From an uncultured Clostridia bacterium (GTDB lineage: Bacteria > Bacillota > Clostridia > Peptostreptococcales > Anaerovoracaceae), in assembly GCA_934271235.1 (NCBI GenBank), contig CAKQQT010000015.1, forward strand, positions 1-64,000: a stretch of DNA of 64,000 nt. The letters run 5' to 3'. The notes under the pieces are model-generated. The model was not told the DNA's origin and did no database searches. It saw nothing but the letters and a program-made list of their open reading frames with translations. A program made the position numbers and the translations under genes. This document shows, piece by piece, positions 6,322 to 16,544 of the stretch (the first letter of the stretch is position 1; each line of letters starts with the position of its first letter).

Positions 6322-6942
6322 CGCCGAGAAGCAGGCTCCGTCAATGCGGAGAATGTCTGTGAGCGGGATCGCTCGACGCTCCGGCGTTTGGCAGAACGGC
6401 GGAGCGTCTGCCGCGCTGCCTGCGTCGATTGCCGGGTCTGACATGGTGGCTGCAGCGGCTGCCAGGTCTGTCCCGGCAGTTGACAGAGCCGCGTCCCTCG
6501 CGGCGGCAGGCTCCAGATAAAGAAGCTGTGCGTACGGATCGACTTTTTGAAAGATCCCAGAGGCGGTGAGATAAGCTCCGCCTTCTTTTTTTGTGTCCGG
6601 GCAGAAGTAGGTGACCGTGATCAGCAGCGGCACGGCAGCTTGCGCGGCGTGAGGTGCTTCGGACATATAGGCCTGCGTGTGAGGTGCTGCATCGGGACTT
6701 TTGCAGGCGGCCTCTGCGGCAAGGCTTTGCAGGAAGCTGAGCTGTCGGTTCAGCCGCTCGCGCTGGCTGTCGTCCTGCTCGATGCGCGGAATGGTCAGAC
6801 GGGCGGTTTCCTCTAAGGCCGCTTCGTAACCGGTCAGCGCGGCAAAAGGCATAAACTGTGCCGCCCGGTCTGCGATCAGCATTTGCCGATGCTTCGCGGA
6901 GACCGGGTGCGGCAGCCGGATGATATCGTCGTAGTTTTTCAT
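6310..6942 (-). CDS. YolD-like protein, partner of the Y-family polymerase
   Basis: 210 residues. The first 55 (YDDIIRLPHPVS, DRAAQFMPFAALTGYEAAL, EETARLT) match the conserved core of YolD-like proteins, which are commonly encoded with UmuC-type polymerases in Bacillota and bacteriophages. The C-terminal half is alanine-rich and contains a segment LLITVTYFCPDTKKEGGAY, normal for the longer clostridial versions. The gene starts at an ATGA overlap with the polymerase stop codon, so it is translationally coupled and shares its SOS promoter. The 3' end overlaps the convergent LysR gene by 12 bp. The molecular role of these proteins is not established. Confidence 0.75.
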   Translation of the reverse strand: MKNYDDIIRLPHPVSAKHRQMLIADRAAQFMPFAALTGYEAALEETARLTIPRIEQDDSQRERLNRQLSFLQSLAAEAACKSPDAAPHTQAYMSEAPHAAQAAVPLLITVTYFCPDTKKEGGAYLTASGIFQKVDPYAQLLYLEPAAARDAALSTAGTDLAAAAATMSDPAIDAGSAADAPPFCQTPERRAIPLTDILRIDGACFSASAF

Positions 6943-8711
6943 GCCTTGTGTCCTCCGATCTGATCGTTGCGCTGCATGGCGGTCGCGCCGTCTTCAAGAT
7001 CACGGCCTTTGATGACCGCGTTTTTGCCGAATTTCTGCTTGATCGCCAACAGGGATTGCTGGATCTTGCGCTCATTTTCGAGAGCTGTGGCGGCTTCTTC
7101 TTTTTGCCGCTGTAGTTCTGACGCGTCGCGGCCGAAGATGTCTTTGCCTTCTGCGACAAAGCTGAACAGGTCAAGCTGCTGCTCTTGTTCCGGTCCCTGT
7201 CCTGCGAAAGCCGCGGCGGCCTGCGCAGACTGCGCGTGCTCTGCGGGAACAGCGCTGCCTGCATTTTGCGGCCGACGGCCGGCAGGCAGGACGCCGCGCA
7301 TGGCCGGAGCACTGCTTCCTTTGGGATCTGTGCCGGTGATCCGGTCAGTCTGCGCGGCAAACGGCGCTTCCGGCAGAATATGGTTCGCGCAGAGGGTCAG
7401 GCGGTGCACCGCGAAATCCGGGTTGACGATGCGCTGGTACAGGTCCGAGAGCGCATCGACGAGCATCGAGATCGAGGAGGTAGGCTGCGGCAGGTTGGCC
7501 GTGCCGTGCGCGTGTTTGGGGACGGCACGGCCGTAGCGGTCGATCGTTACAGCGATGCCATCCGCTTCAGGGGGCAGATCTGTTTCCGTTTGTCTGCGGT
7601 GACTTTGCTGTTTTTGCGGTTTTGCGCGGTGCATGCCGGCGGGCAGCGCGGTTTTGTCGTAGCCGACGGTCAGCACGAGCTGGTCGGTAGTCAGATGTTT
7701 TTCAAACAGGTCCATAGCCAGCTGCTCTGCCATTTCGCAGGCTACCAGATGTGCTTTCGCGGCCGGATAAGGGCATTGCAGCACCTGCCCGGAGCTGATG
7801 CTCGACGAGGCGGGACGATAGGCCTTGATATCCGCCATGGTGCAGGGCTCCCAGCCCCAGGCGTGGTCGATCAGCAGCTCGGCGTTGACTCCGAACAGTT
7901 TATAAAGCAGATCTTCGCTATAAAACTCGCCCGCCTTGCCGATCGAGCAGCGGGCGATATCGCCCATGGTATACAGTCCGACCTTAGCAAGCTTCTGCGC
8001 GTAGCCGTGTCCGATACGCCAAAAATCAGTCAGCGGCTGATGCGCCCACAGCCGCTGCCGATAGCTCATTTCATCGAGCTCGGCGATACGGACGCCGTTT
8101 GCGTCGGCGGGAATGTGCTTGGCCTCGATATCCATGGCGATCTTCGCCAAATACAGGTTCGTGCCGATGCCTGCCGTCGCGGTGATACCGGTTTCGCGAA
8201 GGACTTCGAGGATCATTTTCATGGCAAGCTCGCGTGCCGTCAGTCCGTACAGCGGCAGATAATCGGTGGCGTCGATAAAGACTTCGTCGATCGAATAGAC
8301 GTGGATGTCTTCCGGCGCGATATATTTAAGATAGATGCTGTAAATGCGGGAACTTGCATCGATGTAGTGCGCCATACGCGGCCGGGCGGTGATATAGGAG
8401 ATCGCAAGTTCCGGATGCGCGGCCAGCTCGTCCGCGTTTGCCGATTCCCCCGTGAAGTTTTGACGGCGGGCGCGGGTCAGCCGCAGGGCGTTCAGCTCGC
8501 GGATTTTTTGGACGACTTCGAACAGCCTTGCCCGTCCGGGGATGCCATAGGCGCGCAGGCTCGGAGAGACTGCCAGACAGATCGTTTTTTCGGTGCGGGA
8601 GGCGTCGGCGACGACCAGATGGGTGGTCAGAGGATCCAGTCCGCGCTCCATGCATTCCACAGACGCATAAAAAGATTTGAGATCGATAGCAAGATAAACG
8701 CGCCCCGCCAT
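6939..8711 (-). CDS. Y-family DNA polymerase (UmuC/DinB type)
   Basis: 590 residues, starting at MAGRVYLAIDLKSFYASVE behind an AAAGGAGGTG site; longer in-frame extensions have no such site. The first metal-binding Asp is D10, the steric-gate region FYASVE follows, and the catalytic SIDEVFID motif is near residues 138-146. The fingers, thumb and little-finger regions follow to about residue 400. The C-terminus carries an alanine/glutamine-rich linker and ends in a region DLFSFVAEGKD...LERKIQQSLLAIKQKFGKNAVIKG, typical of clostridial UmuC-like proteins. These enzymes copy damaged DNA in translesion synthesis. A LexA box overlaps the transcription start, so induction by the SOS response is expected. 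Operon with the YolD-like gene. Confidence 0.9.
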   Translation of the reverse strand: MAGRVYLAIDLKSFYASVECMERGLDPLTTHLVVADASRTEKTICLAVSPSLRAYGIPGRARLFEVVQKIRELNALRLTRARRQNFTGESANADELAAHPELAISYITARPRMAHYIDASSRIYSIYLKYIAPEDIHVYSIDEVFIDATDYLPLYGLTARELAMKMILEVLRETGITATAGIGTNLYLAKIAMDIEAKHIPADANGVRIAELDEMSYRQRLWAHQPLTDFWRIGHGYAQKLAKVGLYTMGDIARCSIGKAGEFYSEDLLYKLFGVNAELLIDHAWGWEPCTMADIKAYRPASSSISSGQVLQCPYPAAKAHLVACEMAEQLAMDLFEKHLTTDQLVLTVGYDKTALPAGMHRAKPQKQQSHRRQTETDLPPEADGIAVTIDRYGRAVPKHAHGTANLPQPTSSISMLVDALSDLYQRIVNPDFAVHRLTLCANHILPEAPFAAQTDRITGTDPKGSSAPAMRGVLPAGRRPQNAGSAVPAEHAQSAQAAAAFAGQGPEQEQQLDLFSFVAEGKDIFGRDASELQRQKEEAATALENERKIQQSLLAIKQKFGKNAVIKGRDLEDGATAMQRNDQIGGHKA

Positions 8712-8754: not shown

Positions 8755-8768
8755 AGAACAGATGTTCT
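8755..8768. promoter_or_regulatory. LexA (SOS) box of the Y-family polymerase operon
   Basis: AGAAC-AGAT-GTTCT is a perfect inverted repeat of the Gram-positive LexA/DinR consensus GAAC-N4-GTTC. It lies 8-21 bp downstream of the -10 element on the minus strand, where a bound repressor would block initiation. Confidence 0.85.
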
Positions 8769-10605: not shown

Positions 10606-10983
10606 ATGAACAAGCAAGTTTCCATCAGTGACGCAGAGTGGACGATCATGAAAGCGCTCTGGCAGCACGAGGGGGAAAACATGACGTTAAAGGAGATCGC
10701 CGAGGCGGTGGCGGAATCCGGATGGAGCTACACGACGGTGCGCACGATGGTCGGGCGGCTGGTGGAGAAAGAGGCCATCAACGCAGATGAGAGTCACCCG
10801 CGCAATTTTCGGTATGCCGCGGCGGTATCGGAGGAAGCCTGCCGCCGGGAAGAGATGAAGAGCTTCCTCAACCGCATTTTTGACGGCTCCGCGAAACTTC
10901 TGGTATCCTCTCTGGTTTCCGGCAAGAACCTGACCAAAGAGGAACAGCAGACCTTAATGGAGATCATCGACAAGATGGACTGA
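10606..10983 (+). CDS. blaI: BlaI/MecI/CopY-family transcriptional repressor
   Basis: 125 residues, the family's usual size. An N-terminal winged helix (ISDAEWTIMKALWQHEG, MTLKEIAEAV, WSYTTVRTMVGRLVEKEAI) is followed by a C-terminal dimerisation region. The cleavage and dimer segment around FLNRIFDGSAKLLVSSLV is conserved. Two palindromic operators in its own promoter support autoregulation. The next gene encodes an M56 metalloprotease of BlaR1 type, whose known job is to inactivate such repressors in response to a cell-surface signal. No beta-lactamase or penicillin-binding protein gene is in the window, so the signal is unknown. Confidence 0.93.
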   Translation: MNKQVSISDAEWTIMKALWQHEGENMTLKEIAEAVAESGWSYTTVRTMVGRLVEKEAINADESHPRNFRYAAAVSEEACRREEMKSFLNRIFDGSAKLLVSSLVSGKNLTKEEQQTLMEIIDKMD

Positions 10984-11056
10984 AGCTGCATCGCAGGCTT
11001 TACGGAACAAGGCAAAAAGCAAAGAAAATAGGAAAATCTGCATGGAGGGGTAAAAA

Positions 11057-13534
11057 ATGAACATGCTGAATCTGAGTATCGCGGTGACCGCGGCGGCGCT
11101 TCTTGTGCTGCTGATCAAGCTGGCGGCGGGCAATCGGATCACGCCGCGGGGACATATGCTTTTGTGGCTGCCGGTAGCAGCGGCAATACTGGCGGTACCT
11201 CTGGCAGGCGTTCTGCCGGAGAGTGATCTCGCGGTCAGGACCTATCTGCCGCAGACGCAGGCGCGCGTTGTCATGCCGCATACCGAGCCGGCGCAAGGAA
11301 GTGATTTTTATGAAGATCCGGATGGCAGCGTGCAGGCAAGCGAACAGCCGAGCGATGCGCAAGGAGTGACCGGTACACAAAGCGGGCAGACCCAAGTCAG
11401 CATGCAGGTGCCGTTCACCGACCGGACGATCACCGGTGCCTTTCCGACATCGGCAGGCAGAGACCGTCTCAAGACCGGGATCTACATCACAGGCGTTCTG
11501 ATGGTTTTGGGCGGGCTTTTGATCGGGACCGGAAAGCAGAGAAAAAAGCTGCGCGCACTGGAAGACCGCGAAGACGCACAGCTGCGGCAGCAGCTTACGG
11601 AACTTCGGACGAAGATCGGTATCCGCAGCCGTGCGAAGATCTCGATAAAGCAAGGCGCGGGCAGCACGTTTCTGACGCGGCTGGACGGCCGTTATGTGAT
11701 CGCATTGGAAAGCGGATTCGATGAGGCGGAACAGCGGCAGGTGCTGGCACACGAGCTGACGCACCTTGCGCACGGCGATCTGGAGAAGAATTTTATTGCT
11801 GCGGCTGTGCTGGCGGCGTTCTGGTGGAACCCGATCATCTGGCTGGCCTTTCGTCGGTTTCGGCGCGACATGGAAGTGTACTGCGACTACGACGCGGCAC
11901 GTTTGACGGGGGATAAAAAGAACTATGCGGCGACTTTGGTCAAAGCGGCGGCCGGTACGGAGCGCTTTCTTCTCGGCACGACCTCGTTCATCGGCGGAGA
12001 GAAAGAAGTCAGCGCACGTGTCAAAGCGCTGGCGGCCTTCAAGAAACCGAAGACCTGGATCGCAGTCCTTGCCGTTCTGGCGCTGGCCGCGGCCTGCGTG
12101 TGCTTCACGCTCAACGCCAAGAGCAGCGATCCATGCATCAGGTTCTTTCGCGATATACAGACACAAAACTTTGAAAATATCTGGATCGAAAGAGGCACAG
12201 GCACGCCGTTTGAAGACGATTATATTCATATTAATGACGCAAAACAGCGGAAGAAACTTGCAAAACTGTTCCACACATTCCGTGAAGAGGATTTTGCAGA
12301 CGGAGAACCTGTGAATGAGAACGCCTTTGATTACAAGATTTATATCGACATGGATCTTTCGGAGGAGAACCTGACCAATTTCCTGGTGCTGGGCAGAGAG
12401 GAAGAGGCCGGCGCCGATATATATTGTATTGCCGGCGAGAACGAAGACACAAGGATCAGAGGAAAACGCATACATTCGCCGAAGCTGACGGAACTTCTCA
12501 AAGAATATGAAGATACGAATCTGCACATGTCCTATTGGGCTGAGGCGCAGAATGCCGGCAGTATCACAGTACATATCGAGAACACAGAATACGATAATCC
12601 GGCCCCGCACCTGACTTATAAGGAAAACTTCCGCGTTGAGCGTTATACGGGAAAGAAAGATCCATATACAGACAAGAACAGCTGGGAGGCTGTACCGGAG
12701 CAGAAAGGCTACAAAGGCACAAGAGCAGGCGGAACCGCCATGGGAAACGAATATCTTACAGCCACGATCGATATTTCCACAAAATACGGAGAACTGCCGG
12801 AGGGCATTTATCGACTGATCCTTCCGTTTACGCAGAAATTACAAAACGGAAAAACAATCGAACAGGAAAACGCCGCAGTCTTCGAATGGGTGGAAAACCG
12901 GCTGCATCTTGTAGACTGGGATTTTCTGCTCTCACAGCCGGACGGGGACTTGAACGAAGAAACAAAAAACGAGCTGAACCAGGCATTCCAAACATGGGGC
13001 AAAACTTCCTTGTACTGCTACTTTACAAGTGCGTACAGCAGTCCGGATAAAATGGATTTCTTTGAGTTTTTAAGATATTATCCACAGTTTGATGATGTTA
13101 TGGGCTGGACGCCGGACCTCAAAGCAAAGTTTGAAGACTCCGCGTTCTGGAGCACATACAGGAAAAACGGCTGGACGGTCGATAATTACATTACGCCGGT
13201 GAAACCTTATGATCCTGCGGGGCTGAATCAAAGCCTCACATATTACGCAGGCATCACGCTCGACGATATCCGAACGCACTACACGCAAAAAGAATGGGAG
13301 CGGTTCTATGTGAAAGATATCGACCGCTATATCACCTTTACCAGCGACGCGGGCGGCGGTAAATTCATTGTCACAGAGGGAAAAAAGTCGGGTGATACCG
13401 TTACTTTGGTTGGCGAAACCTTAAGCCTCAAAGAAAAAGGCTTAGATATATACAGCGGTGACGGAATTTCGGTATTGACGCTGCAGGAAGCGGACGGTCG
13501 GTATCTGATCCGGTCACTGCTGCCGAGTGAATAA
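11057..13534 (+). CDS. M56 family (BlaR1-like) membrane metalloprotease, paralogue 1
   Basis: 825 residues. Two N-terminal membrane segments, then a long linker, a third membrane segment near 150-165, a cytoplasmic zinc-protease domain with H232-E-L-T-H236 (AHELTHLAHGDLEKN), and conserved AFWWNP and RRFRRDMEVYCDYDAAR motifs. A fourth membrane segment near 332-352 is followed by an extracellular region of about 470 residues that is not a penicillin-binding domain. Its last 200 residues (WDFLLSQPD, FFEFLRYYPQF, AGITLDDI, DIDRYITFTSDAGGG, LQEADGRYLIRS) are shared with the paralogue at 13884. Such proteins sense an external ligand and cleave or trigger loss of BlaI. It follows blaI by 73 bp. Confidence 0.88.
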   Translation: MNMLNLSIAVTAAALLVLLIKLAAGNRITPRGHMLLWLPVAAAILAVPLAGVLPESDLAVRTYLPQTQARVVMPHTEPAQGSDFYEDPDGSVQASEQPSDAQGVTGTQSGQTQVSMQVPFTDRTITGAFPTSAGRDRLKTGIYITGVLMVLGGLLIGTGKQRKKLRALEDREDAQLRQQLTELRTKIGIRSRAKISIKQGAGSTFLTRLDGRYVIALESGFDEAEQRQVLAHELTHLAHGDLEKNFIAAAVLAAFWWNPIIWLAFRRFRRDMEVYCDYDAARLTGDKKNYAATLVKAAAGTERFLLGTTSFIGGEKEVSARVKALAAFKKPKTWIAVLAVLALAAACVCFTLNAKSSDPCIRFFRDIQTQNFENIWIERGTGTPFEDDYIHINDAKQRKKLAKLFHTFREEDFADGEPVNENAFDYKIYIDMDLSEENLTNFLVLGREEEAGADIYCIAGENEDTRIRGKRIHSPKLTELLKEYEDTNLHMSYWAEAQNAGSITVHIENTEYDNPAPHLTYKENFRVERYTGKKDPYTDKNSWEAVPEQKGYKGTRAGGTAMGNEYLTATIDISTKYGELPEGIYRLILPFTQKLQNGKTIEQENAAVFEWVENRLHLVDWDFLLSQPDGDLNEETKNELNQAFQTWGKTSLYCYFTSAYSSPDKMDFFEFLRYYPQFDDVMGWTPDLKAKFEDSAFWSTYRKNGWTVDNYITPVKPYDPAGLNQSLTYYAGITLDDIRTHYTQKEWERFYVKDIDRYITFTSDAGGGKFIVTEGKKSGDTVTLVGETLSLKEKGLDIYSGDGISVLTLQEADGRYLIRSLLPSE

Positions 13535-13547
13535 AATTTGCAAAAAA

Positions 13548-13582
13548 GAACGCTTGTTCTTGATGAAAAAATATGTTATGAT
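13548..13582 (+). promoter_or_regulatory. LexA-box promoter of the small peptide gene
   Basis: GAAC-GCTT-GTTC (13548-13559) fits the Gram-positive LexA consensus, extended as AAGAAC/GTTCTT. TTGTTC (13554-13559) serves as the -35 element, with a 17-bp spacer to TATGAT (13577-13582). The operator therefore covers the -35 box and should repress the promoter until SOS induction. Confidence 0.7.
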
Positions 13583-13666
13583 GAAAAAGCCAAGAGAATA
13601 GGAGCCGAGCGGCTGAGCTGAATTTCAAAAGGTCTGTATGGATTTGGAGAAAGGAGGCGGCGCGAA

Positions 13667-13768
13667 ATGCGAATCACGATTACGCTGAAGCGTATTAAGA
13701 TCACAATTTCCAGCATAAAAAAAGCCGCTCCTGCTGACACCAAGAGCGGCAATGCCCATAAAGGGTAA
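13667..13768 (+). CDS. 33-residue basic peptide, candidate SOS-induced type I toxin
   Basis: ATG at 13667 follows AAAGGAGG (13650-13657) at a slightly long but usable distance. The peptide starts MRITITLKRIKITISSIKK and ends KSGNAHKG; it alternates beta-branched hydrophobic and basic residues and is strongly cationic. It is not the hydrophobic helix seen in most known type I toxins, so the toxin label is an inference from architecture. Its mRNA starts at a LexA-box promoter about 75 bp upstream. The 3' half of the gene is covered by a convergent antisense RNA with its own promoter and terminator. I do not recognise a named family. It sits between two paralogous M56 genes. Confidence 0.55.
   Translation: MRITITLKRIKITISSIKKAAPADTKSGNAHKG
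13717..13750 (-). terminator. Terminator of the antisense RNA
   Basis: On the minus strand GCCGCTC (13750-13744) pairs with GAGCGGC (13730-13724) around a 13-nt loop and is followed by seven T. Confidence 0.85.
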
Positions 13769-13803
13769 ACGTATAATTGGCTAAGCCGTAAGGCTCATCT
13801 CTT
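13717..13803 (-). ncRNA. Antisense RNA, candidate antitoxin
   Basis: A minus-strand consensus promoter would start a transcript near 13803 and a strong intrinsic terminator would end it near 13717, giving about 87 nt. The RNA is fully complementary to the 3' half and stop codon of the small peptide gene and to its 3' untranslated region. A small AGCC-TTAC-GGCT hairpin lies near its 5' end. This geometry matches type I antitoxins that overlap the 3' end of the toxin mRNA, such as RatA or SR4 in Bacillus. Confidence 0.6.
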
Positions 13804-13809
13804 GGCACT

Positions 13810-13838
13810 AGCATAGCATGATTCCGTAAAAAAGTCAA
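13810..13838 (-). promoter_or_regulatory. Promoter of the antisense RNA
   Basis: Minus strand: TTGACT (13838-13833), exactly 17 bp, TATGCT (13815-13810). A strong constitutive-type promoter, as expected for an antitoxin RNA. Confidence 0.75.
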
Positions 13839-13883
13839 CGAAATCTCAAAGAAGATAAAAGGGAAAAGTATGGAGGATAGGCT

Positions 13884-16544
13884 ATGAACATGCTGAATCT
13901 GTGTATTGCTGCAACTTGCGCCGGAATCTATGTAAAAGTCTCGCAAGATGCTATGAGCTTGCTGAATCTGAGTATTGCCGTGACTGTGGCAGCGGTGCTC
14001 GTGCTGCTGATCAAGCTGGCGGCAGGCAATAAGATCACGCCGAGAGGGCATATGAAGCTTTGGCTTTTGGTGATGATATCGTTTATCGTCAGTCCCATTG
14101 CGGAGCTGATGCCGGAAAGCGAATTCGCGGTGCGCAACTGGCTGCCGCAGAGCGAGACCACTACGGAAACGGTCTGGGTGGAGCCTTATGAAAATCTGGA
14201 CGCCCGGGGGTTTCTGATCGAAGAACAGGGTGATTACTATGCCATTCAAAAGGATTATGTCAGCATGCAGGTACCGTTTTCGGACAAAAGACTGCATACC
14301 GAGTTTGCGGCAACGACTTCGCGTGTCAAACTGGAAAATTGGGTCTGGTTCGGCGGCGCGGCAGCCGTCGGTCTGTGGATGTTCCTCGGAAGCCGGCGAC
14401 AAAAGCAAAAACTCAAAGCCTTGCCGGACAGCAGCGACGCCGCATTGCTCGCGGAGCTGGAAGCCGTGAAAGCGCTGATCGGTGTGGACGGCAAGGTGAA
14501 GATCTGCATCAAAGAGGGCACGGAGACAACGTTTCTGACGCGCATGAACGGCCGTTATGTGATCGCCTTGGAAAACGGATTCAGCGAGGCGGAACGGCGG
14601 CAGGTGCTGGCGCATGAACTGACGCATTTGAAACACGGCGACTTAAACGATAATTTTTCGGCTGCGCTGATCCTGACGACATTCTGGTGGAATCCGGCCA
14701 TCTGGCTGGCCTTTCGCCGGTTCCGCCGCGATATGGAAGTGTTCTGCGATCACGACGCGGCACGTCTGACGGGGGACAAAAAAACTTATGCGGCGACGCT
14801 GGTCAAAGCTGCCGGTACCGAACGCTTCATTCTCGGCACGACCTCGTTCATCGGCGGTGAAAAAGAGGCCAGCGCGCGTGTCAAAGCACTGGCAGCTTTC
14901 AAGAAGCCGAAGACTTGGATCACGGCGGCCGCGCTGCTGGCACTGACAGTCGGCTGTGTGTGTTTCGCGCTGAACCCGGTCGGACAGGACAGCGAAGCAA
15001 ACCGCGCGGCACTCACGCAGGCCTACGAGAATCTGCTCGCGGTAAAAAGCATGGAAGCAACCAGGACGACGGATATCGATTACGGTGCGCTCTCCGGCAC
15101 CCGTACGCATGAAGTGTTTGCATCACAGCAGTCGGAAGAACCGCTGCGCATACTCGGCACGACGACCTTGGAAACCACGGAGCAGGCCACGGGATCGGGG
15201 GATGCCGCGCAGGCGGATACGGCCTACACGTTCGGCTATTATCTCACAGGTACGCGAGGCGGTGCTGTGCGGACCTATATCCAGAGTGTGGACAGCGCCC
15301 CGGGACAAGGGTGGATCGACTTCGGCAGTCAGACCGTGCGGGCCGAAACGACGGTGAGCGGCGGCTATGACCGGGAACCTGCTTCTTACGGACAGGACGA
15401 TCTGCTCGGCAATCTGCGGCAGTGTCTGAAAGCTGCCATAGAGAGCAAGCAGATCACGCGCAGAGGAAATGAATACCGAGTGACGATGCCTTACGATTGG
15501 GAACTGTTCTGCGCGATCGCGGCAAATCAGGGCCTGAACAGCGTTTTGGCGTCAAACGGGATCGGTTTTTACAATCTGTGGTCAGAGGACGACGCACAAA
15601 CGACCGAACTGATACAGAGCGCCGAACTGGTCATCGAAATGGATGAAAAGACCATGCTGCCGCGCAGCTATACCTTGAGCTTCACCAAAACCTGCGAATT
15701 GATCCGCGAACGTATGGGGTCAGAGGGCAGCATCGGCGATGCGGTCGTTTCGGTAGAAGTCAGCAGTTATGACGCGTTTGCGGAACCGGACTACCGCGCG
15801 TTCGGCGGAAAAACGGAATTTCAAAAGATCCTGACGGAAGCAGGTGGCAAGGAAGGACAAGACAACGAACAGCAGGCCGGAGCCGGCAGCGAAACGCAGC
15901 AGACCGGCGCGGAGGATTACGCCTTGAAGCTGGAAAACTGGGATTTCCTGCTTGCGCATCCGGACAGCATGCTGACGCAGGCAGCACTGGAAAAACTGAC
16001 CCGCATGTTCGCGCTCGAGGTATCTGTGGGCGGCAATAACACAGCATACAATCCGAACACGCTGTACTGTTTCCTCAGCAGTCAATATGACGATCCGAAG
16101 GAGATCAATCTGGAGCACTTCCTGCGCTACTATCCGTCTTTCCCGGAATGCTTCCGGTGGACAAAAGCGCAGGAGAAAAAAATGCTGGCGTCCAAAACGT
16201 GGAAAGATCGCTTTGGCGATATGGGCATCAACGACACGCCGACGCCGGTGCGGCTCTTTGATCCGCAGGCACTGAACGTTTCGCTGGAATATTATACGGG
16301 GATCCGGATACAGGACATCCCAAACTGGCAGGAAGCGGAAAGCTACATACCGGAGATCGACCGCTATCTGAACACGAGCAGCGACTTCGGCGGCGTAAGT
16401 TTTGCACCGGCTTCCGGTACGAAGAACGGCGATACCGTAGTCCTGCGCGGCAACATTTACGGCGACGGCAAGGTGGATGTGGTGACCCTGCAGGAAGCAG
16501 ACGGCAGATACCTGATCCGCTCACACCGGCTCGAAAAGGCGTAA
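13884..16544 (+). CDS. M56 family (BlaR1-like) membrane metalloprotease, paralogue 2
   Basis: 886 residues, closely related to paralogue 1 in the membrane and protease regions: H244-E-L-T-H248 (AHELTHLKHGDLNDN), FWWNPAIWLAFRRFRRD, and the TSFIGGEKEASARVKALAAF segment. The N-terminus carries a partial internal duplication, MNMLNLCIA (1-9) and MSLLNLSIA (24-32). The start at 13884 is preferred because a GGAGG site precedes it, while the second Met has none. The extracellular part has an extra region of about 300 residues (near 370-660) that looks like a lipoprotein-type sensor fold, followed by the same 200-residue C-terminal domain as paralogue 1. No BlaI gene or BlaI operator lies directly before it. 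It probably arose by tandem duplication. Confidence 0.86.
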   Translation: MNMLNLCIAATCAGIYVKVSQDAMSLLNLSIAVTVAAVLVLLIKLAAGNKITPRGHMKLWLLVMISFIVSPIAELMPESEFAVRNWLPQSETTTETVWVEPYENLDARGFLIEEQGDYYAIQKDYVSMQVPFSDKRLHTEFAATTSRVKLENWVWFGGAAAVGLWMFLGSRRQKQKLKALPDSSDAALLAELEAVKALIGVDGKVKICIKEGTETTFLTRMNGRYVIALENGFSEAERRQVLAHELTHLKHGDLNDNFSAALILTTFWWNPAIWLAFRRFRRDMEVFCDHDAARLTGDKKTYAATLVKAAGTERFILGTTSFIGGEKEASARVKALAAFKKPKTWITAAALLALTVGCVCFALNPVGQDSEANRAALTQAYENLLAVKSMEATRTTDIDYGALSGTRTHEVFASQQSEEPLRILGTTTLETTEQATGSGDAAQADTAYTFGYYLTGTRGGAVRTYIQSVDSAPGQGWIDFGSQTVRAETTVSGGYDREPASYGQDDLLGNLRQCLKAAIESKQITRRGNEYRVTMPYDWELFCAIAANQGLNSVLASNGIGFYNLWSEDDAQTTELIQSAELVIEMDEKTMLPRSYTLSFTKTCELIRERMGSEGSIGDAVVSVEVSSYDAFAEPDYRAFGGKTEFQKILTEAGGKEGQDNEQQAGAGSETQQTGAEDYALKLENWDFLLAHPDSMLTQAALEKLTRMFALEVSVGGNNTAYNPNTLYCFLSSQYDDPKEINLEHFLRYYPSFPECFRWTKAQEKKMLASKTWKDRFGDMGINDTPTPVRLFDPQALNVSLEYYTGIRIQDIPNWQEAESYIPEIDRYLNTSSDFGGVSFAPASGTKNGDTVVLRGNIYGDGKVDVVTLQEADGRYLIRSHRLEKA

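Follow-up and report, generated by a model that had tools for sequence, protein, structure and literature searches.

We take Hol_Tox (PF16935), TxpA-RatA and BsrG-SR4 to belong together as type I toxin-antitoxin modules of Firmicutes. For TxpA/RatA and BsrG/SR4, passages of PMC4147584 describe a convergent antisense RNA (~75 and ~120 nt, respectively) that overlaps the 3′ end of the toxin mRNA. In hok/sok and aapA1/isoA1, as set out in parts of PMC8167048, the two mRNA ends, 5′ and 3′, pair with each other, and the antisense RNA has a target in common with one of them; the principle by which mRNAs of type I systems are usually kept inactive is described in part of PMC11228461. The Fst/par module (pAD1 RNA I / RNA II) combines a 33-aa peptide with convergent promoters and a terminator that is a shared element, according to sections of PMC7472228. 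The tisB/istR-1, dinQ/agrB and symE/symR modules of E. coli are SOS-controlled type I modules in portions of PMC6563280 and PMC8309996, the former being a review of Clostridia systems that names tisB, dinQ and symE as SOS-linked, and istR-1 and tisB are divergent in the passages of PMC4147584. The membrane-associated type I toxins classified in the corresponding part of one review all possess an alpha-helical transmembrane domain (PMC8309996).

How does the locus at 13548–13838 of the window, which is the whole 64-kb stretch of DNA that was analysed, compare with these systems as the cited passages describe them? Like RatA and SR4, its predicted antisense RNA is convergent and overlaps the 3′ end of the toxin mRNA. 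Unlike the hydrophobic Hol_Tox, TxpA and BsrG toxins, its peptide is cationic and alternating, and its family has a predicted mRNA panhandle, whereas none is described for Hol_Tox, TxpA or BsrG in the passages of PMC4147584. Pairing between the mRNA 5′ and 3′ ends and an antisense RNA that shares its target with one mRNA end are likenesses to hok/sok and aapA1/isoA1. However, the 5′ site in hok/sok is contested by the antisense RNA and the mRNA 3′ end, and the window presents the mirror image, in which a 3′ site would serve both the antisense RNA and the mRNA 5′ end; its antisense RNA, unlike that of hok/sok, is similar to the 5′ arm of the mRNA and has the 3′ arm as its predicted target. Also unlike blocking of the hok/sok type, folds of the window family give no evidence for hiding of the Shine-Dalgarno sequence, and the peptide has no match to the hok or aapA1 families. 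The 33-aa peptide, convergent promoters and terminator as shared element recall Fst/par, but the complementary regions of par arise from direct repeats (DRa/DRb), whereas inverted arms give the matching 5′ ends in the window family; an Fst-like hydrophobic peptide with direct repeats was not found at the window locus, where the arms are inverted and the peptide has no Pfam match. Finally, the module would be SOS-linked like tisB, dinQ and symE, as judged by its operator box, but it differs from these in its peptide and in having convergent promoters rather than the divergent ones of istR-1/tisB.

Results

Organization of the locus

The sequence-only reading of this DNA had described a LexA-type palindrome on the −35 of a promoter with 17-nt spacing, and both elements are present. 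The predicted LexA/DinR-type operator GAACGCTTGTTC, a perfect GAAC-N4-GTTC, lies at 13548–13559 on the −35 (TTGTTC, 13554–13559) of a plus-strand toxin promoter at 13554–13582, with a 17-nt spacer and the −10 TATGAT at 13577–13582. The mRNA 5′ arm (13589–13622, plus strand) opens with GCCAAGAGA and then carries AGCCGAGCGGCTGAGC. The strong Shine-Dalgarno sequence AAAGGAGG (13650–13657, plus strand) precedes the 33-codon frame that had also been proposed; this candidate toxin ORF, MRITITLKRIKITISSIKKAAPADTKSGNAHKG, occupies 13667–13768 of the plus strand, from its ATG at 13667 to the end of the stop codon at 13768. The mRNA 3′ arm (13775–13806, plus strand) is complementary to its partner, the 5′ arm, and to the 5′ end of the antisense RNA.

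On the minus strand, a promoter at 13810–13838 (TTGACT 13838–13833, 17 nt, TATGCT 13815–13810) scores 9/12, and the predicted antisense RNA that would start from it, the antitoxin candidate, covers ~90 nt at 13717–13806 of that strand with the 5′ end GCCAAGAGATGAGCC and ends inside the peptide gene, in agreement with the earlier claim. Its intrinsic terminator (13717–13750, minus strand) comprises a stem at 13724–13750 and a U7 tract at 13717–13723 that is complementary to the Lys-Lys codons of the ORF; it is GC-rich and lies inside the ORF, as had been stated, but the length of 7 bp given for its stem was too low, since the stem has 10 bp with 7 G-C pairs. The type I feature visible at the level of sequence is present: opposite the toxin mRNA lies a predicted antisense RNA gene that has a promoter and a terminator to itself. 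Rfam gave no match at gathering score in the window, and in 11 related loci its matches were tRNAs only.

Family survey

Within 12900–14500, promoter-like sites (3 versus 1.6 expected) and terminator-like sites (4 versus 1.9 expected) are by count not clearly above chance, and it is the retention of the same layout in 33 other loci that lifts the window locus above it. A protein search returned 16 close peptides without DNA context, 15 of which start with M(R/K)IT, and a DNA pattern search led to a single relative, L006, which lies in a Bacillota MAG. The L006 genome was the starting point for a survey with peptide profiles, in which 36 of 349 genomes of one family match at E ≤ 0.05, the weakest probably by chance. 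The main set consists of the window and 33 loci with both ends recognisable, the latter taken from 42 peptide matches; left out were L095, with a decayed 3′ arm, L100, L107, L115 and L117, all without the 5′ part, L118 and L119, with no recognised second arm or a contig end, and L120 and L121, weak matches that were fetched without inspection. Sampling of the class gave one clear match to the core peptide profile among 341 genomes (G270) and one genome with the terminator pattern among 245 (G001), each being the centre genome, and in a sample of 297 genomes of the order 9 match, all of them already in the 349-genome family list, G615 weakly.

The genome search for the peptide together with the opposing terminator, which the sequence-only reading had called for, gives 33 further loci that share the layout, with the antisense terminator at the ORF end in 34/34 loci versus 29/300 random stretches in the same scan (loops ≤22); a first, stricter scan with loops ≤10 recovered it in only 8/34. 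Predicted antisense RNAs measure 74–92 nt across the 34 loci, and the U-tract of the terminator falls mostly on a Lys-Lys pair, which is present in 28 of the 34 peptides. Promoter scores of at least 8/12 are reached on the sense side in 31/34 loci and on the antisense side in 27/34, versus 7.6% of random places in either case, although the −10 half of these scores is not independent, because the scans that anchored the arms favoured an adjacent −10-like hexamer (arms were anchored by scan, and by hand in 13/34 loci). From these sequences the module looks like a conserved family, and its peptide family looks undescribed.

Several further observations were made among the loci. In L091, L093, L094, L101 and L113, the antisense promoter is overlaid at its −35 region by a sense-strand terminator whose loop supplies TTGC or TTGA. 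L107, L115, L117, L133, L142 and L155 have the antisense half without the toxin 5′ half, which gives them the appearance of decayed modules or of free antisense RNAs. A phage, plasmid or viral origin was considered and rejected: two pattern scans of viral contigs returned no match and five matches, respectively, all five being false positives, DNA searches of phages and plasmids with the window reached only 10–12% coverage at E 0.03–0.4, and the peptide search gave none.

Predicted pairing between the mRNA ends

Within each locus, the mRNA and the antisense RNA resemble each other over their first ~35 nt, and because the antisense gene complements the 3′ half of the mRNA, pairing is possible between the 5′ and 3′ ends of the mRNA. 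The 5′ tag itself varies between loci: the window has GCCAAGAGA, L006 has TTTGACAACGG, and other loci have GTCAGGAA or GTCAAGAGGA. A duplex between this tag in the antisense RNA and the terminator of that RNA (in the window, GCCAAGAG with CUCUUGGU) was entertained and dropped because L006 has the same terminator with a different tag.

The duplex between the window arms has a predicted energy of −41.3 kcal/mol (z −6.2 versus shuffled arms), the minimum-energy fold contains the panhandle, and the window 5′ arm pairs best with its own 3′ arm, which none of the 3′ arms of the 33 other loci equals. In an alignment of 19 loci, RNAalifold recovered the panhandle unprompted, with 96.9% of cells paired versus 26–46% in slid controls and with 30 cells changed on both sides versus 9.7 ± 2.4 in shuffles (0/500 reach that number), counts that are somewhat favoured in that the structure was derived from the same alignment. 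The 11-sequence alignment that holds the window gave only 9 panhandle pairs. Between the tandem copies G523a and G523b, a G-to-A change on one side of the panhandle is accompanied by a matching change on the opposite side, and G581 has a weak panhandle (z −1.7).

A directional test that needs no predicted structure bears on the same question. A difference between the arms is G.U-compatible when the mRNA has G or U opposite A or C in the antisense RNA, and if the 5′ ends were alike for reasons other than pairing of the sense RNA, G/A and A/G differences would be expected equally. In segments chosen by identity across the 34 loci, 64 differences are G.U-compatible, 3 are opposite and 48 are transversions, counts that are not independent in that related loci share changes, and to which the window/L006 pair adds 1, 0 and 6, respectively. 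A global alignment of the complete 42-nt arms, with their hairpins, gives a much weaker excess (112 versus 61, with 193 transversions), and so the directional signal sits in the conserved blocks. The 64:3 excess argues for panhandle folding of the sense RNA itself, and 5′-3′ pairing of the full-length mRNA is supported by these comparisons.

What would this structure do? Mean accessibility of the Shine-Dalgarno sequence over the 34 loci is 0.47 in the full-length fold versus 0.37 in the truncated one, being lower in the full-length fold in 4/34 loci and higher in 17/34, and folding across these loci gave no sign that the panhandle hides it. For this reason, the panhandle may rather serve stability or keep the antisense site closed.

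An apparently shared RNA chassis

A covariance model, R1, was built from 32 antisense RNAs with the window and L006 excluded; holding only 6 base pairs, it is mostly a sequence profile, and its E-values are roughly calibrated. Its best match in the 64 kb is the window antisense RNA (21.3 bits, E 0.0057; the next reaches 12.1 bits, E 0.61), and it also matches the L006 antisense RNA (22.6 bits). Among 345 family genomes, R1 has matches in 66, and 125 of the 126 matches were classified by the ORF that ends at the terminator, one having no assignable place. The 125 comprise 42 with a window-type peptide, 32 with a hydrophobic peptide, a class set by thresholds that has at least one doubtful member (G375), and 51 with neither.

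The hydrophobic loci share the RNA features described above. Both sides bear the exact tag GTCAAGAGGA in four of them (L170, L172, L189 and L190), 16 of the 23 loci tested out of the 32 have a strong panhandle (z ≤ −4), and the arm differences in those 16 count 23 G.U-compatible, 0 opposite and 15 transversions. Like Hol_Tox modules, the chassis also carries a Hol_Tox peptide: when eight hydrophobic peptides were scanned with Pfam Hol_Tox, 1 passed (30.2 versus a cut-off of 23.3 bits), 3 had it as a sub-threshold best match and 4 had none. The locus that passes, L238, is a weak R1 match (E 0.0097) but has a clear panhandle (z −7.3), and the two peptides scanned separately, of three from the exact-tag loci, have no Hol_Tox match at all.

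Type I peptides of known kind and the window peptide therefore seem, on this evidence, to sit on one RNA chassis with the toxins swapped, and such a swap is the strongest argument that the window peptide is a toxin, an argument that would be stronger if the exact-tag loci themselves matched Hol_Tox. The assignment to type I made in the sequence-only reading is supported by the architecture, by conservation of the reading frame and by a chassis in common with hydrophobic, partly Hol_Tox-type peptides. As a separate observation, the hydrophobic frames of L167, L175, L178 and L225 lack an ATG and have an ATT behind a good Shine-Dalgarno sequence (for example GGAGGTGATAATATTTCGGCTTATGAA), so that an AUU start is possible there.

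Predicted SOS control

GAAC-N4-GTTC is the Gram-positive LexA consensus. The pattern occurs twice in the 64 kb versus 0.96 expected in shuffles, 25 of 100 of which have at least two; being expected about once per 64 kb, it is by itself weak evidence, and it is placement on the −35, not frequency, that makes the box count for function. The second window box, at 8756–8767, lies just downstream of a TATAAT, and a Y-family (IMS) DNA polymerase gene (6939–8711, minus strand) has its ATG 44 nt further downstream; this gene is, from its position, a plausible and likely second SOS gene.

Is the module, then, a type I module without SOS control, in which the box is a chance match or the site of another repressor? 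Within the stretch examined, 33 of the 34 main-set loci are without the box even when one mismatch is allowed, the window being the exception, and all fetched loci together with the window hold 7 boxes in 352 kb (one region counted twice), which is about the chance rate. Yet the box sits on the −35, and three of the 125 R1 matches have one within 360 nt upstream: L154, with a window-type peptide, has the identical 12-mer and the identical 17-nt spacing, and L225 (a Hol_Tox-like peptide without ATG) and L212 (a shortened copy) have the box just upstream of a TATAAT. These latter two suggest that SOS control would not be tied to the window-type peptide, and the position of the other window box before the polymerase gene also speaks against chance. 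A module outside SOS control is for these reasons unlikely, although it is the alternative that we take most seriously. The sequence-level support gathered here suggests that the module is probably SOS-controlled in the window genome, as first proposed, and that LexA control likely applies to a minority of these modules.

Neighbouring genes

In the window, 10606–16544 holds a gene for a BlaI-type repressor followed by two tandem paralogous M56/BlaR1-like peptidase genes, and the toxin module sits between the two paralogues. The terminator scan that finds a sense terminator in 12/34 loci finds none within 90 nt downstream in the window, so that the window mRNA may read into the next gene, the second M56 gene. 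This placement would suit a regulatory or leader peptide, or an sORF/antisense pair, that acts on the M56/BlaR1 peptidase genes next to it and involves no toxin. However, when flanks of ~1.3 kb per side were compared by blast for 31/34 loci, those of the window and L006 matched nothing and the others matched only in a few pairs or groups, and the RNA chassis also carries unrelated hydrophobic peptides, which makes control of the M56 genes improbable.

The peptide

The conserved core of the peptide spans ~18–19 residues (about residues 1–19), and peptides of the 34 loci range from 18 to 33 aa with a net charge of +4 to +7, in keeping with the earlier description of a cationic, alternating peptide that is not a hydrophobic helix. 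In one clade the peptide terminates directly after Lys-Lys, and for this reason the C-terminal tail of the window peptide, KAAPADTKSG, appears to be largely the antisense terminator read as codons. In frame, pN/pS of the core is 0.34 (11 loci of one clade) and 0.23 (6 loci of a second clade), and out of frame the values are 1.0–1.8 and 1.7–3.6, with at least 1.0 in both of the other frames. By this measure the peptide is under purifying selection, and the frame has been conserved in relatives where DNA drift had been named as the contrary outcome.

These values bear on two further alternatives. According to the first, the RNA pair is a real regulator, the ORF is incidental and the peptide has no effector role; the C-terminal codons are indeed constrained by the antisense terminator, and 51/125 antisense matches have no recognised ORF. 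Against it, the core with its low pN/pS is largely upstream of the terminator, a Shine-Dalgarno-like hexamer (at least 4/6 matches) is present in 34/34 loci, and several of the printed ORF-less copies look truncated or have a frame without ATG, so that we judge an RNA-only regulator very improbable. The second, least probable of all, traces the matching 5′ ends to the repeats by which a DNA element (a MITE or invertible segment) recombines or transposes, without RNA structure, as matched arms, mostly 7–12 bp exact, that flank loci and the multiple copies in several genomes might suggest, but a DNA repeat would not yield arm differences biased toward sense-RNA G.U pairs (64:3 and 23:0 in the identity-chosen segments), and promoters abut the arms on both sides of a frame under purifying selection.

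The type I module is thereby left as the preferred reading, with a peptide that the sequence-only reading had placed outside described families. The searches agree: the peptide has no Pfam match at E up to 1, and hence stands outside Hol_Tox PF16935, it has no NCBIfam, PHROGs or PADLOC match, the core profile has no match in the PDB, and a text search of a collection of articles for six peptide strings found no paper. AlphaFold places two strands at residues 2–6 and 11–15 of the window peptide at low confidence (mean pLDDT 61.2, pTM 0.23), and the fold is perhaps a beta-hairpin. The suggestion of a new toxin type gains support from the comparisons above, its beta-hairpin part coming from this low-confidence model. 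Viewed by eye and uncounted, many of the loci L084–L089, L091, L093, L094, L097, L101, L102, L112–L114 and L116 show an additional Shine-Dalgarno sequence together with a short leader ORF; these leader ORFs are in varying frames and overlap into the toxin start, which may be compared with mok/hok coupling.

Discussion

We consider it likely that the locus is a type I toxin-antitoxin module, probably LexA-repressed, in which an antisense RNA would displace an mRNA panhandle and from which a cationic peptide, most likely membrane-active, would be made. DNA damage would remove LexA and allow the toxin mRNA to be transcribed, and the full-length mRNA would close into a panhandle, for which there is comparative support, its first ~35 nt pairing with the region that templates the antisense RNA. 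The ~90-nt antisense RNA is predicted to be perfectly complementary to the 3′ half of the mRNA, where the mRNA 5′ arm would pair partly by G.U wobbles, and because perfect pairing is set against wobble pairs, the antisense RNA could displace the 5′ arm and would then mark the mRNA for decay by RNase III. When the toxin mRNA outnumbers the antisense RNA, translation would yield a short peptide, cationic and amphipathic and probably folded as a beta-hairpin, that would slow or kill the cell, most likely at the membrane.

The verdict that we draw from the sequence comparisons is that a type I chassis of known kind would here carry a new toxin variant. A wider proposal, for which we see about even chances, is that it represents a new structural class, in which a cationic beta-hairpin toxin of 18–33 residues replaces the helical Hol_Tox-type toxin on the same chassis, LexA control applies in some lineages, toxin and RNA control are exchangeable, and the antitoxin is the mirror image of hok/sok with invasion enabled by wobble pairs. 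The mRNA panhandle, the family of loci and the toxin swap on one chassis go beyond what the sequence-only reading contained.

A beta-type toxin, if true, would break the all-alpha-helical pattern of membrane-associated type I toxins. Searching for the RNA chassis is a route to toxins that are too short or too varied for protein searches, and with the directional G.U signature, toxin mRNAs of other families can be tested simply for 5′-3′ closure. With an SOS-linked member outside E. coli, a damage response of the tisB kind would extend to other bacteria, probably Bacillota, to which the MAG with L006 belongs, and the toxin swap, if true, would mean that type I modules evolve by effector exchange.
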